DNA of 64,000 nucleotides from Leptotrichia sp. oral taxon 847 (lineage in GTDB: Bacteria; Fusobacteriota; Fusobacteriia; Fusobacteriales; Leptotrichiaceae): the NCBI RefSeq assembly GCF_001553645.1, contig NZ_CP014231.1, positions 744,001-808,000 on the forward strand. Direction: 5' to 3'. The notes below the pieces were generated by a model. That model saw only the letters and a list, made by a program, of their open reading frames with translations, made no database searches and was not told where the DNA came from. This document shows, in pieces, positions 45,417 to 54,045 of this stretch (the stretch's first letter is position 1; every line of letters starts with the position of its first letter). The translations under genes and the position numbers were made by a program.

Positions 45417-45734
45417 TTATTTATTTTTTCTATAACGACTAAATTCTGGTGTGTTTTTAACATTTACTTTTGATGTATCTTCACTAGCTTTTTTCTTACC
45501 AATTGCGTCGTCTATTCCAGCTCGATTGACATTTTTATCGTCTTTTTTATCTTTTTTCTTTTTATCTACTTTTTTAAAAATGCTGTCTACGCCTTTTCTG
45601 TCAGTTGTTTTGTCTTTATCCTTTTTAACTATATTTGAAATTCTTCTTCCCAATCTTTTTAATCTTCTTGGAGATGAAAAGCTAAGTGCTGAACCCATAA
45701 CTAAGAATACTAGTATATATTTTTTTATTTTCAT
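45417..45734 (-). CDS. Small exported Lys/Asp-rich protein
   Basis: 105 residues. MKIKKYILVFLVMGSALSFS is a signal peptide. The mature part is extremely charged (RRLKRLGRRISNIVKKDKDK, KKVDKKKKDKKDDKNVNRAG) with two related segments, DRKGVDSIFKKVDKKKKDK and NRAGIDDAIGKKKASED, which look like a short duplicated unit. No known domain. It may bind nucleic acid or acidic envelope polymers because of its charge; this is speculation. It is probably monocistronic. Confidence 0.6.
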   Translation of the reverse strand: MKIKKYILVFLVMGSALSFSSPRRLKRLGRRISNIVKKDKDKTTDRKGVDSIFKKVDKKKKDKKDDKNVNRAGIDDAIGKKKASEDTSKVNVKNTPEFSRYRKNK

Positions 45735-48725: not shown

Positions 48726-48828
48726 TAATTTTCTCGCTTTCTTTTTTTTTCATAATTTTTTTACCCCTATATTATACATTGATTTTGAATAAATAACAAT
48801 AAAAATATTAATCAATTTTTATTTAACA

Positions 48829-48856
48829 GAGTAAAATATTTAGTATAGATAATTTC
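48829..48856. repeat. Solo end of the structured interspersed repeat
   Basis: GAGTAAAATATTTAGTATAG followed by ATAATTTC resembles the terminal motif of the 460-bp repeat (GAGTAAAATATTTAGGGATA in copy C). No body of the element follows, so this is an isolated end or relic. Confidence 0.45.
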
Positions 48857-48871
48857 CACTTAAAAAAAGAG

Positions 48872-48921
48872 AAAAACAGTTACAATGTAATCGCTCAATC
48901 TTATTGTAAGGTGTTTTTCTT
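48872..48921 (-). terminator. Terminator after the GH26 autotransporter
   Basis: GAAAAACA..TTACAAT and ATTGTAA..TGTTTTTC pair over about 15 bp with two mismatched bases, followed on the minus strand by TCTTTTTTT. It lies 140 bp after the stop at 49063. Apart from this and the solo repeat end, 48726-49062 shows no gene. Confidence 0.65.
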
Positions 48922-49062
48922 TGTGATTAAATAGTAGTTTTTTCGTTACTTTTTCAAAGAGTGTCAATTTTTCTATTCTATCCGATTGTATCATTTCTAA
49001 GTATGTTTAGAATGGCAATGGTTAATGGTTAATAAAGTAATAAATAAAATAATTTCAATACA

Positions 49063-52000
49063 CTAAAAACTTGCTTTAATTCCAAGTCCTCCTCTTACAT
49101 TATCGCCTTTCGTATCATATCCCAGATTTGCAGTTACTCCCAATCCTTGATTTTGTATTCCAAAGTTTAAGTCAAGCTTCACATTCCCTTTTTTGCTCTC
49201 CTTTTCGCTTCTCAAATTGTACCAGTCTGCATCGGTATGGGCTACTTTTTCTCTATTCGCACCCATACTTCCAAGTTCTGTTTCATATGCTATTCCTGTA
49301 CCTAGTACTAATGTTGTACTTGCTGTCAGTGGCTGAATATATTTAAATTCCGTTCCTATTTCAGGCTTTGCTGAAAAATAACCATTTTCTTTTACTTTTA
49401 ATCGCATATCTCCATTTTTTTCCTTGATTCTGCTAAATCTTCCATATTCCATATTCAATGCCCCGTACGGTCTAATGCTCATCTTATCATTTAATCTTGT
49501 TTCTTTTCCAATTTCGTTCCTCATCCCCAATCCGTACGAATAATAATTTGATTTTGCATTAAATACATTGTCTACAACAAGAAATCTTCTGTTCATGCTG
49601 TTTATTCCAAAAAATCCTTCTCCCGATACTGTCCATTTCAAATTTTTATCCTTGCCAAATGTGGTCGTCTTAAACACTCCACCTTTGAACATTGTCTGAT
49701 TTTCTCTTGACTTTCCTATATCCTTGAGCTGAAAGTTATTATTCACTATTCCTGCGTACCAACCTCTTGTATCGTCAGAAGCAAAATCATTTTTATGAAC
49801 ATAAGCTATCCCATAAGTATTATTTTTATAATCAGTTATTCCTGCTGTATCTGTTTTATATTCGTCTTTTGAACCAAATACTTTTATTCTGTCGCTCTGT
49901 TCAGTTTCATCTTTTATCAAATCGTTTACTTCTCTAGTTACTGCAGCCCCTGTTGTTTTTATCCTTGACTGGATATTTGCATACTGATGTCCCATCATTT
50001 CGTCTACTGCTTGAGTAAATAATATCTCTTCATTGTTTCCTATGCTGTTCAATTTATTAAACAATTCCTTTTCAGATCCTTCCTTTTCCACTCCATATCT
50101 CTGTTCCAGTCCATCTAAAAAATTATACGTCTGTCTTGAATTTTCCTTATCCCCCGCAAATACTGTATATGGAACTTTTGCTAAATATACATCTCCTGTT
50201 CCGTTTGCATTCGCCGTCATCCCAGCCATCCAAGTAAGACTTCCTGAATACACATTCCATTCTTTTATTCCTGAATTTTTTATCATACCGATGAAAGGAG
50301 ACGTAATGTTTTGTCCTAACTGAATATATTTTTTATCAGTACTCTGTGTTGCTTCAGCTCCTATTATCAAATCTGCTGACCGCATATTAGCAAGAGCTCC
50401 TAAATTATTAACAGGATTAGTTTTCATTACTCCCGAGGTGTCCACATAAATACCCACTGATGAAACAGGATTTGAGACGTTTGATGAAGCTTTAGGATTA
50501 ACTGTATTTACAAGTTGTATTTCCTGTGGTGTATTATTTAAAGTTATTGTTCCGTTGACAGTATTTATTTTTATTCTGTCTACTCCATCTGTTCCCATTG
50601 CTTTTTCAAGTCCTGTCGTTTTTTCCTCAAGTATTGGCAACGCTCCGCTTCCTGTTGTGATATTCATACTGCCGTAATTTTTTATAACAGCGTTCGACAG
50701 CACAAGTCCATAGCCGTTTGAAGCATCAATATTAATACTTCCTTTGTTATTTAAAGTACCATTGATTACCGCTATTCCTATCTGTCCATTATTTCCTGTA
50801 CCTGCTGTTGTAATTGTTCCTGTATTTAATGCAGTTGCTCCGTTATCTACATACATTCCTATATTTCTTGATGTTCCGCTTAATTCAATTGTCCCTGCAT
50901 TTTCCGCAATAGAGCCATTTCCTGTAGCGTACATTCCTACACTTCCAGGAGTTGTTACTTTTATTATTCCTGAATTTTTAACATATCCAAGTCCATCTGT
51001 ATATCCTGCAGCCATTCCTATTCCAATATTTCCAGCCGCTGACTGCGATACTGTTATTGTTCCTAAATTCTCTGCCACCTGCGGAGCTGTTATGGCATTT
51101 TTAGAATAACTGTAAATACCTACATTTCCTGTTCCTGAACTAAAATCTATATTTCCATAATTAATCAACTTTCCTGCTGTTATCAATCCATAATTTTGAT
51201 TCCCCGCTGATTTCAGATGATTATAATTTATGATATTTCCTGTTTTATCTGATGAATATAGAAATACAGAATTTGTATTTAATGTTACAGAGCCTGTATT
51301 TCTTGCATATCCTGTTACTATATTATTATTCTGACCTGTTGCAACATATCCAAATGAATTATTTCCAATAATGACTTTGTCGGTCTGACTGTTTAATACC
51401 TGATTACCACCCGATAAAAGAACATTTACACTGTTATTTCCTGTATTAAGTGCAGAATTCTGTCCTACAGATGTATTTTCTCCAACTGCGTATATTCCAA
51501 CACTGTTGTCTCCTGTAAGAATATTTCCTGTCACTTGCAATGTTCCATTTGAAGCCGCTATTCCAACACTATTTGTCGCACTTGATAAATCAATGTTACC
51601 ACTGCTGCTGACAGTGGAAACTGCTCCGTTATTTGCGGCAAATATTCCAACTATATCCCTACCACCTGCAGCGGTCGCTATATTCCCTGAGTTACTTATA
51701 TTTATATTTTTATTACCCCATATATTGTTTGCGGGAAGAGCATTCACTCCATAAATTCCAACACTTTGAGATCCTACTTCTATATTTCCTTTGTTTTCTA
51801 TTACGGAATTTGCTGAACCAAGCATCCCCACATTTCCTGCGCCTGTCATTTTGATTGATCCTGTTGTATCATTTGTTACAGTTCCATTATCAGACAGCAA
51901 GGCTGTTGTATTATTTCCAGTGAAATTTATTACACCTTTATTTGTTACCTGGATAGCGTTATTCCCTGATGAGCCCACATAATTTGTCTGCCCTAAAATA

Positions 52001-54045
52001 TAATTTTTGTTTCCCGCAACAGTTGAACCTGAGATTGTATTCCCGGCATCAAGCGTAATATTTGACAGATTAAAGTTTGAACTGTAAAACAAATCTGATG
52101 AATTGTCCAAATTTACATTCTGTCTGATATTTAAATTTCCTGCTGTTACTGAAGTATTCATAGGACTTCCTGCATTCAAATTAATTGGTGCCAAAAGCCA
52201 TGGTGCTGTTTTCATATCATTTTCTGCAACATGACCTGCCCAAGGAAGCTGATATTCTGTAGGCCATTGAGTCCAAGTCATAGCATAAGATGTACCTGTA
52301 CCTTGAAGAGCCTGTGCAACAGGTGTCTGAAACCATGTATTATTTGTAGATGACATTGCATGGCTTCCCAAACGGCCGTATTCTGTAAGAGCTGCCACTT
52401 TTCCTGATGATTTTGCCTGATTTCCAATCATACGCATATCTCCTGCAACAAGATTAATCCAATTTGCTTCACTTTGACTCGCAGACTGCCAATACGCATC
52501 ATATCCCAACACATCAATTACATCATCACCGGGATAATCTGCCATATATCTATTTAAATCACTTCCGCCTCCAAAATCACCGTTTGGTGCATATGCAAGA
52601 AGTATCTGATCTCTTACGCCTGCCGCAACAAGTGCTTCATGAACGCGTCTGAATGCAGCTTTTATTTTATCATGGGATTGATTTGGTTCTCCCCACCAAG
52701 GCCAATCTCCGTTTTGCTCATGGAATACTCTTAATACCCAGGGAATAGGTGTGCCGTCAGGCGCTACTGCGAGTTTTGCAGTTTCAACGATTGTCTGTAT
52801 CCATGTATTAAATTGATTTGCATACGCCCCAGTTGATGAAAACTGATCCAAATCTGGATTCCCTGTTTTATCGTCACTTTTTCCATCGTGGTTATTTTCA
52901 TATTTAGTGGGATTTGGAATCTCACTTGAAGCTGTAAAAACTGCTCCTAGGCTATTTGCTTTTTTTATATAATCTGCCATCAGCTGACTATTATCTTGTA
53001 TGCTTTTTGTCCAGTGTGTTGGCTGTTCTCCAAAGTGCATTCCGATTACCGCGGGATATTTCCCCGTAACAGAATAAATATCTGAACTATAGCCTGAAGA
53101 ATTTTGTGGTGAAATACTTACATCAATTCCGTGCTGCTGTCCCATAATAGGTGTTCCTGCATTAGCATAATATTTAAGCGCATTCATAAGTTTTTGTCTT
53201 GATGTTAAATTTGTTGGAGTATAAGTTAAAGCAGGCATCGTTATTCCTTTTATTCCCAGCGCTGTACCTGTACCCTGTAAATCATTTACCATAATGACAG
53301 GCAATGTTATCGATGCTTTACTCTTATCAAATTCTACAGGTTTTGTAGTAACGTTTAAATTAATATTTGGTGTAAGCGTAGAAGCAGAAGATGCTCTATC
53401 CGATACAATAGGCTCTTGCTCTATTTTTATATCTGCAATTCCATAATTATTATTGTTATTTCTATTATTTGGATTTGTCAGAGCCGAGTTTTTCATATTT
53501 TCGTCTTTCAAAGACTTTGTATAGGAATTATATGAATCGCTGTTTGGAGAAACTGTTCTTAAAAAAATATCATTGCTTCTTTTATATACACCTTCATATT
53601 GATATTTATCACCTTTATCATTTTTCCCTTTGTATAATTTGTGCTGATTATTAAAAAAGTACTCAGTTTCATATTTTAAAGAATTATTTTTATTACTGTT
53701 TTTTATCATTTGATCAAGTTTTAAATCATTTTCTGATAAATTATAGCTGTTTTCTTTATGGTCTGATGTTACAATTGTATCATTTTCTTCGTTTTTAAAA
53801 ATAGGATTATCTTTAATGGATGAATAAATTTCATCTACCGTATTTATATTTGATTTTTCATAAAAATCATCTTTTTCGTTATCGGCTTCTTGTAAATTTT
53901 CATTGTTTACGTATAAATTCTTTTCCCTACTGACATTCTCATTTATTTTTACCAAAGTATTTTTGCCAATGTTATTTTTTTCTGCTAAAACAAGAGTTGA
54001 AATACTGGAAAAAATTCCTATCCATTTAAATTTGTTTCTCTTCAT
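49063..54045 (-). CDS. Autotransporter with GH26 (beta-mannanase family) passenger domain
   Basis: 1660 residues. Signal peptide (MKRNKFKWIGIFSSISTLVL), a disordered polar region (25-240), then a GH26 domain (about 275-620): GQQHGIDVSIS, the acid/base Glu443 in LRVFHEQNGDWPWWGE and the nucleophile Glu555 in AALTEYGRLGS, 112 residues apart as in known GH26 enzymes. A long Gly/Asn/Thr-rich beta-helix (about 630-1330) and a C-terminal autotransporter barrel ending GGLGIKASF follow. GH26 enzymes mostly cut beta-1,4-mannans. A surface-anchored mannanase is thus predicted. The GH26 segment is richer in G+C than its surroundings, suggesting acquisition. Confidence 0.92.
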   Translation of the reverse strand: MKRNKFKWIGIFSSISTLVLAEKNNIGKNTLVKINENVSREKNLYVNNENLQEADNEKDDFYEKSNINTVDEIYSSIKDNPIFKNEENDTIVTSDHKENSYNLSENDLKLDQMIKNSNKNNSLKYETEYFFNNQHKLYKGKNDKGDKYQYEGVYKRSNDIFLRTVSPNSDSYNSYTKSLKDENMKNSALTNPNNRNNNNNYGIADIKIEQEPIVSDRASSASTLTPNINLNVTTKPVEFDKSKASITLPVIMVNDLQGTGTALGIKGITMPALTYTPTNLTSRQKLMNALKYYANAGTPIMGQQHGIDVSISPQNSSGYSSDIYSVTGKYPAVIGMHFGEQPTHWTKSIQDNSQLMADYIKKANSLGAVFTASSEIPNPTKYENNHDGKSDDKTGNPDLDQFSSTGAYANQFNTWIQTIVETAKLAVAPDGTPIPWVLRVFHEQNGDWPWWGEPNQSHDKIKAAFRRVHEALVAAGVRDQILLAYAPNGDFGGGSDLNRYMADYPGDDVIDVLGYDAYWQSASQSEANWINLVAGDMRMIGNQAKSSGKVAALTEYGRLGSHAMSSTNNTWFQTPVAQALQGTGTSYAMTWTQWPTEYQLPWAGHVAENDMKTAPWLLAPINLNAGSPMNTSVTAGNLNIRQNVNLDNSSDLFYSSNFNLSNITLDAGNTISGSTVAGNKNYILGQTNYVGSSGNNAIQVTNKGVINFTGNNTTALLSDNGTVTNDTTGSIKMTGAGNVGMLGSANSVIENKGNIEVGSQSVGIYGVNALPANNIWGNKNINISNSGNIATAAGGRDIVGIFAANNGAVSTVSSSGNIDLSSATNSVGIAASNGTLQVTGNILTGDNSVGIYAVGENTSVGQNSALNTGNNSVNVLLSGGNQVLNSQTDKVIIGNNSFGYVATGQNNNIVTGYARNTGSVTLNTNSVFLYSSDKTGNIINYNHLKSAGNQNYGLITAGKLINYGNIDFSSGTGNVGIYSYSKNAITAPQVAENLGTITVSQSAAGNIGIGMAAGYTDGLGYVKNSGIIKVTTPGSVGMYATGNGSIAENAGTIELSGTSRNIGMYVDNGATALNTGTITTAGTGNNGQIGIAVINGTLNNKGSINIDASNGYGLVLSNAVIKNYGSMNITTGSGALPILEEKTTGLEKAMGTDGVDRIKINTVNGTITLNNTPQEIQLVNTVNPKASSNVSNPVSSVGIYVDTSGVMKTNPVNNLGALANMRSADLIIGAEATQSTDKKYIQLGQNITSPFIGMIKNSGIKEWNVYSGSLTWMAGMTANANGTGDVYLAKVPYTVFAGDKENSRQTYNFLDGLEQRYGVEKEGSEKELFNKLNSIGNNEEILFTQAVDEMMGHQYANIQSRIKTTGAAVTREVNDLIKDETEQSDRIKVFGSKDEYKTDTAGITDYKNNTYGIAYVHKNDFASDDTRGWYAGIVNNNFQLKDIGKSRENQTMFKGGVFKTTTFGKDKNLKWTVSGEGFFGINSMNRRFLVVDNVFNAKSNYYSYGLGMRNEIGKETRLNDKMSIRPYGALNMEYGRFSRIKEKNGDMRLKVKENGYFSAKPEIGTEFKYIQPLTASTTLVLGTGIAYETELGSMGANREKVAHTDADWYNLRSEKESKKGNVKLDLNFGIQNQGLGVTANLGYDTKGDNVRGGLGIKASF

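Follow-up and report, generated by a model that had tools for sequence, protein, structure and literature searches.

A GH26 glycosidase domain in a Fap2/RadD-like autotransporter of Leptotrichia sp. oral taxon 847

The window, a stretch of 64,000 nucleotides from Leptotrichia sp. oral taxon 847, carries on the reverse strand at 49063-54045 one intact ATG-start open reading frame (ORF) of 1660 amino acids with zero internal stops. The protein starts with a putative signal peptide, followed by an N-terminal module that recurs in autotransporters of the genus, a (beta/alpha)8 domain of family GH26, a stalk resembling those of Fap2 and RadD, and a C-terminal autotransporter barrel. This layout raises the question of what a glycoside hydrolase does in such a protein and which sugar polymer it would act on. 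A preliminary description had read the gene as a GH26 glycoside hydrolase carried as an autotransporter passenger, and profile, structure model and architecture bear this out.

Gene, domains and genomic site

The features of the locus are the following.

53983..54045, reverse strand: putative signal peptide, residues 1-21, short; from sequence reading and comparison within the genus
53278..53760, reverse strand: autotransporter N-terminal module, residues 96-256; from BLASTP and an alignment of 10 of 18 autotransporters
52162..53223, reverse strand: GH26 (beta/alpha)8 domain, residues 275-628; from Pfam, PDB and a structure model
53035..53037, reverse strand: H337, replacing the -2 subsite Asp (BoMan26B D101); D in 87 of 92 aligned rows; PMC6556568
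52921..52923, reverse strand: E375, replacing the -1 subsite His (BoMan26B H136); H in 89 of 92 rows; PMC6556568
52717..52719, reverse strand: E443, acid/base (BoMan26B E201); conserved in 92 of 92 rows
52699..52701, reverse strand: P449, replacing the -1 subsite Phe (BoMan26B F207); F in 90 of 92 rows; PMC6556568
52381..52383, reverse strand: E555, nucleophile (BoMan26B E291); conserved in 92 of 92 rows
49885..52140, reverse strand: Fap2/RadD-like passenger stalk, residues 636-1387; from Pfam, NCBIfam, PDB and BLASTP
49063..49884, reverse strand: autotransporter beta-barrel and stop codon, residues 1388-1660; PF03797
54046..54210, no strand: upstream boundary of the extra gene, adjoining folD
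48726..49062, no strand: downstream boundary of the extra gene, adjoining the biotin carboxyl carrier gene

The Pfam Glyco_hydro_26 profile matched residues 281-550 (E 8.8e-24, 84.9 bits against a cut-off of 20.2) and the Autotransporter barrel PF03797 residues 1388-1640 (E 2.7e-22, 80.2 bits against a cut-off of 26), while Pfam found no carbohydrate-binding domain in the 1660 residues. The stalk agrees with the length of about 700 residues given earlier, including a sub-threshold Pfam match to a BigA beta-sandwich at 1227-1291. Its structure model, made from one sequence, had a pLDDT of 40.8 and was unusable. The putative signal peptide of about residues 1-21, read by eye, has LVLA at its end and is without the long KKDLK.FAKR...YTDSALITFLLTG leader that is present in 10 aligned autotransporters of the genus.

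We found that the whole gene, not the enzyme part alone, differs at this site and is lineage-specific, because each of the 12 congeneric genomes has the biotin carboxyl carrier gene (bccp) after folD and lacks an autotransporter gene between the two. The two species that come nearest in folD (96% and 94%) have in this gap a small ORF, about 44 codons long as judged by eye (L003 2885-3181, L004 13709-14169); this ORF is missing at the site in Leptotrichia sp. oral taxon 847, where the autotransporter gene occupies its place. The L004 gap also holds an A-rich AAATAAAG-type repeat. No GH26 match was obtained in the 12 other sampled species of the genus, and with our own genome counted in both samples, GH26 exceeded the cut-off in one of 33 family genomes and one of 98 phylum genomes. 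A weak partial GH26 match under the cut-off (E 6.8e-4, 203-residue frame) was seen in another family of the phylum (L002, G045:C120).

It had been proposed that the G+C-richer DNA of the enzyme domain reflects recent uptake. The rise itself is real (0.405 in the enzyme versus 0.357 in the stalk); recent uptake is not supported by it, because codon positions 1 and 2 account for nearly all of the excess. The values for positions 1, 2 and 3 are 0.518, 0.453 and 0.244 in the enzyme and 0.412, 0.447 and 0.211 in the stalk; at position 3 the barrel has 0.264 and eight neighbouring genes range from 0.194 to 0.258. Fourfold-site G+C is 0.163 for the enzyme, 0.178 for the stalk and 0.220 for the barrel, and the same eight genes span 0.137-0.376. 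These values fit an ameliorated gene that was either acquired as a whole or lost in other lineages.

An assembly chimera or an annotation artefact could also produce the only GH26 over the cut-off among 98 sampled phylum genomes. We consider this very improbable, since the ORF is continuous in a one-contig genome with a listed completeness of 100% and contamination of 0.06, its three parts (enzyme, stalk and barrel) have similar third-position G+C, and the sequence on either side of the enzyme is matched by autotransporters of the genus.

No mobile vehicle was identified in plasmid, phage and viral searches; the plasmid search with the enzyme returned 14 records, all below 60% identity, and the phage search three. 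Repeats that could mark the ends of a mobile element were sought between 48600 and 54400; of the 44 direct families 20 were listed, of the 28 inverted pairs 25, and none of those listed was convincing. Promoter-like sites were no more frequent than expected by chance (26 found versus 26.3 expected), and a terminator scan did no better than shuffled sequence. The gene stands among housekeeping genes, and none of the ORFs adjoining it is a mannan gene. Elsewhere in the window, 45417-45734 on the reverse strand encodes a small lysine-rich protein of 105 residues with a signal-peptide-like start, adjoining rnfD.

Autotransporter relatives and the position of the enzyme

In a PDB sequence search, residues 670-1129 matched an autotransporter chain 3250 residues long (9qe7, E 2.1e-23). 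Such homology to an autotransporter of solved structure would agree with the beta-helical stalk described earlier. Because the code 9qe7 appears once in the available part of the Fap2 paper PMC12397386, the chain is taken as Fap2. The NCBIfam RadD model NF049908 matched residues 775-1640 with 133.9 bits, far under its equivalog cut-off of 3500; by sequence, the Leptotrichia protein is a relative of RadD and not RadD itself.

Within the genus, BLASTP placed the similarity on both sides of the enzyme. Residues 96-256 match an N-terminal module in 11 of 18 sampled autotransporters with 27-39% identity, and from about 620-720 onward stalk and barrel match 17 of the 18 with about 38-48%; in the eighteenth (L025) the match starts only at 1043. 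Between the two matching regions, the relatives carry about 620-1010 other residues, for example L028 at 219-914. In Fap2, the available part of PMC12397386 places the receptor-binding matchstick between the N-terminal region and the beta-helix, in a membrane-distal position. Our protein shares with Fap2 and RadD of Fusobacterium the type Va layout, a homologous stalk and barrel and an N-terminal region that precedes head and stalk. It differs in having a GH26 enzyme where Fap2, in that same account, has the matchstick adhesin as its tip, and it is shorter (1660 versus 3250 residues for the 9qe7 chain). Hence, judged from these alignments, the adhesive head seems to have been exchanged for an enzyme, with GH26 standing in place of the distal passenger part of the related adhesins.

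That other autotransporters of the genus might also be enzyme-headed was considered and is unsupported, as Pfam found no enzyme domain in the N-terminal parts (470-1200 residues) of 35 sampled proteins, eight of whose frames (L018, L022, L026, L030, L135, L137, L138 and L141) start, by eye, inside the N-terminal module or passenger, so that an upstream head would be missed in these. The 35 were drawn from 257 autotransporter matches in the genus, our own included and some being split pieces of one gene; E-value limits were 0.01 for one part of the scan and 0.001 for the other, with L025 left out. It returned one weak DUF match under the cut-off and one barrel match. Eleven shorter autotransporters of the genus (L124-L134, 1046-1130 residues) have a lipoprotein-like signal ending in SC and a single cysteine in ten cases and two in L134; Pfam gave only one barrel match in the first 900 residues of each. 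Barrel matches in the plasmid collection came from two Fusobacterium records and one Sebaldella record, which fits the phylum. A 2.1-Mb Fusobacterium vincentii record labelled as a plasmid (NZ_CP084075.1, L122) has one annotated feature in all; it is chromosome-sized and possibly mislabelled.

The 1660 residues contain no cysteine, which would suit passage through the barrel. This is a weak argument because cysteine is likewise missing from 12 of the 18 autotransporters sampled and, counting our own, from 57 of 89 GH26 rows. In the titles and abstract beginnings of the open-licence literature, we found no characterised GH26 autotransporter, which is not proof of absence, and no match for Leptotrichia with GH26 or for Cardiobacterium hominis with mannanase.

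GH26 fold, catalytic pair and glycone pocket

The enzyme part matched CfMan26A in the PDB sequence search (E 2.4e-34). An AlphaFold2 model of residues 256-640, built with 35 relatives, reached a mean pLDDT of 83.4 and a pTM of 0.86, with eight strands in order. In this model E443 (model position 188) directly follows strand 4 and E555 (position 300) lies within strand 7; both glutamates are thus placed at the ends of strands 4 and 7, and not away from a TIM-barrel active site, the placement that the preliminary description had named as speaking against its own reading. It had also located the two residues correctly: HEQNG starts at residue 442 and LTEYG at 553. H442 of the HE motif is, like both catalytic glutamates, present in each of the 92 rows. 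The presence of a GH26 fold and catalytic apparatus is confirmed by profile, modelled barrel, HE motif and both Glu. Since the dyad is intact, catalysis is likely.

Comparison of the model with known structures by Foldseek and VIA-align gave GH26 beta-mannanases as the top matches (Z 39.4 for a CfMan26A mutant chain and for 4yn5, 39.3 for 2bvt). All rows with Z above 30 were GH26 beta-mannanases, a marine GH26 (6q78) or engineered CfMan26A; lichenase entries (Z 20.8-21.1) and xylanases (Z 20.6-22.1) followed lower down. The protein shares the fold, the catalytic Glu pair and the +1 site with CfMan26A, CjMan26A, 4yn5 from Bacillus JAMB-750 and BoMan26A/B, and its identity to the first three is 22-29% in structural alignments. 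It differs from GH26 beta-mannanases in that the -2 Asp, -1 His and -1 Phe are replaced, the loop after strand 2 is shortened, no CBM was detected and the layout is that of an autotransporter.

According to the available part of PMC6556568, conservation in mannanase branches A and B reaches 97% or more at the following cleft residues: D101, H136, R197, H200, G204, W206, F207, D261, Y263, W314 and the two catalytic Glu (BoMan26B numbering). We mapped them with a Bacteroides finegoldii protein nearly identical to BoMan26B (6hf2, E 1.2e-252), whose numbering is equal at these places. In the alignment nine of the twelve residues are kept: R439, H442, E443, G446, W448, D516, Y518, E555 and W591. 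This set covers the Arg, the His of the HE motif, the +1 Gly, Trp and Asp, the -1 Tyr and Trp and both Glu, and includes the equivalents of all seven of R197, H200, G204, W206, D261, Y263 and W314. The other three are replaced (D101 by H337, H136 by E375 and F207 by P449), and a BoMan26A homologue yields identical columns (D86, H125 and F194). In the model, the altered Asp and His positions lie at the ends of the neighbouring strands 2 and 3, and the change from D and H to H and E looks like an exchange of acid and base, as a suggestion. By comparison with the mannanase cleft, the -1/-2 glycone pocket has probably been rebuilt, and the exact substrate would then differ from that of textbook mannanases.

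The identification as a beta-mannanase made in the preliminary description is therefore plausible, not secure: the catalytic dyad, the conserved +1 site and the best structural matches speak for it, and the replacement of three of the twelve cleft residues against it. From the sequence, we regard a beta-mannanase as probable. The protein could even be an orthodox endo-beta-1,4-mannanase in which the glycone substitutions are tolerated and manno-oligosaccharides feed the cell as in other mannan users. The structural neighbours above Z 30 and the intact +1 site and dyad would suit it; the three altered residues, so strongly conserved in branches A and B in the text available from PMC6556568, count against it, and we give this reading a substantial chance that falls short of even.

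Alteration is not restricted to the cleft. Fifty-eight positions are near-invariant (at least 95% conserved in the 88 other rows, a set without the distant viral L115, L116 and L120); the Leptotrichia domain keeps 38 of them and is altered at 20, including the three glycone-cleft residues. Its branch in the 92-row tree is very long (2.77 changes per column). Given the altered positions and the long branch, mannanase activity may have been lost. A GH26 barrel with weak or no catalysis might then serve as a sugar-binding head that grips a glycan, in the very position where related adhesins carry their binding heads; the lost glycone residues, the 20 of 58 altered positions and the fast-evolving branch would agree with this. 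However, the nine retained cleft residues, both Glu among them, are in our judgement more than simple decay should leave, and we consider such a head unlikely.

The closest relatives were sought in genome contigs with a four-sequence alignment, which gave at least 597 stretches and at least 531 relatives, of which the best 80 were kept; a single-sequence scan with the enzyme matched 31 stretches, none of them confirmed. A viral scan yielded nine distant loci from 70 stretches, and its single-sequence version none. Among the matches listed, the highest scores belong to a large Cardiobacterium hominis NCTC10426 protein with two GH26 domains (L033; 191 and 187 bits, 35% identity each), while some Bifidobacterium rows reach 36-37% identity with lower scores. 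The stretch after strand 2 is short in nine of 92 rows; the Leptotrichia domain and both Cardiobacterium domains share the same gap, and the other six are shortened differently. Cardiobacterium domain 1 is altered at the same three glycone positions (G, F and A) with both catalytic Glu kept, and it retains 47 near-invariant positions, 12 of 59 being altered. Three of the 92 rows are without the -1 His; two of these, the Leptotrichia domain and Cardiobacterium domain 1, are also altered at the Asp, and viral L115 is gapped there. The Cardiobacterium protein differs from ours in having two GH26 copies, Ig-like and marginal LapA matches and no autotransporter barrel in the 1969 residues read, which include the C-terminus, its 5' end lying outside the locus. 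One of its two GH26 domains has altered glycone residues, the other being canonical; they stand among Ig-like repeats (L033 941-1879 and 4001-5017), and the end of the protein contains a GGSGDDTL stretch that is RTX-like by eye.

In the 92-row tree, the Leptotrichia domain and the two Cardiobacterium domains were grouped (support 99/90) next to eight Bifidobacterium rows. The grouping with domain 1 may be due to long-branch attraction. In smaller trees (38 and 37 rows, from 39 chosen of the 92 with viral rows dropped), the Leptotrichia domain still stood beside Cardiobacterium domain 2 when domain 1 was left out, and at the Bifidobacterium end when both were left out. All eight compared Bifidobacterium rows differ from it in keeping the -2 Asp, -1 His and -1 Phe (BaMan26A lies outside those rows). 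BaMan26A of Bifidobacterium adolescentis is described, in the part of PMC4642672 available, as a putatively cell-attached mannanase with tandem CBM23. It resembles our protein as a putatively cell-attached GH26, from a genus whose GH26 domains neighbour the Leptotrichia domain in the trees, and differs from it in the tandem CBM23, of which none was found here. The way in which GH26 enzymes are attached to surfaces appears to vary from phylum to phylum.

Two further GH26 loci were noted during these searches. The Streptococcus sp. HMSC072G04 locus (L103, 3671-6715) combines GH26 with a mannanase galactose-binding-like domain, CBM11 and, by eye, a C-terminal LPNTG-type signal, and is a candidate surface-anchored mannanase. 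A 43-kb Bacteroides finegoldii record labelled as a circular plasmid (NZ_OY725938.1; L142 and L144) carries near-identical copies of BoMan26A and BoMan26B, neighboured by an alpha-galactosidase and a glycan-binding protein; this mannan locus is possibly mobile, or the replicon mislabelled.

Substrate and proposed role at the cell surface

The backbone of yeast mannan is alpha-linked, and GH26 enzymes cut beta-linked backbones. For this reason, the attack on yeast mannan that had been proposed earlier is not expected. Most likely the first-choice substrate is beta-1,4-mannan, with an altered preference on the glycone side. As for the products, the genome has seven places with PTS EIIC and one GH1 gene at C1:1391461, close to the PTS EIIC at C1:1389782; because these two lie near each other, use of released oligosaccharides is possible, and a cell living from an ordinary endo-mannanase would have in them a possible phospho-route. 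No GH130 match was found in any of the 13 genomes of the genus, which, together with the housekeeping surroundings of the gene, argues against such a life; with the lack of neighbouring mannan genes and of a carbohydrate-binding domain, it also counts against the reading preferred below.

In the reading that we prefer, and hold to be somewhat better than an even bet, the protein belongs to the Fap2/RadD-like expansion of type Va autotransporters in the Fusobacteriota; a GH26 glycosidase replaces its membrane-distal adhesive head and most likely cuts a beta-1,4-mannan-type polysaccharide. Its export and display at the tip are proposed because of the known biology of type Va systems. Sec would carry the protein across the inner membrane, the C-terminal barrel would insert and the passenger would be threaded outward with its C-terminus first. 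The stalk would then fold outside the cell, and the cysteine-free enzyme would emerge last and sit at the far tip. There the enzyme, using E443 and E555 in a retaining double-displacement mechanism, would hydrolyse a beta-1,4-mannan-type polysaccharide such as plant galactomannan or glucomannan from food, and the stalk would hold the cell attached to or near its substrate.

The altered glycone triad, which among the 92 compared rows is found only in the Leptotrichia domain and one Cardiobacterium hominis domain, allows a bolder version of the head swap in Fap2/RadD-type autotransporters. Both domains might belong to a GH26 subgroup with a rebuilt glycone site, and the enzyme might have another target than plain beta-1,4-mannan, perhaps one of the glycans in the oral biofilm or the host diet that canonical GH26 enzymes leave uncut, with its own substrate tethering the cell. 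We put this forward tentatively and think it rather unlikely.

Under our preferred reading as a surface glycosidase, and from what its sequence suggests, the enzyme probably acts at the cell surface, where it would cut or hold a sugar polymer. The substituted -1 and -2 residues next to an intact catalytic pair offer a direct test of the determinants of GH26 specificity, and the protein is a compact natural case of the export of a TIM barrel at the N-terminal end of a long stalk. If active, it would bring a surface activity of the mannanase type to a genus in which the 12 other sampled species gave no GH26 match. Overall, our data suggest that the large fusobacterial adhesin family may swap its receptor-binding tip for an enzyme.
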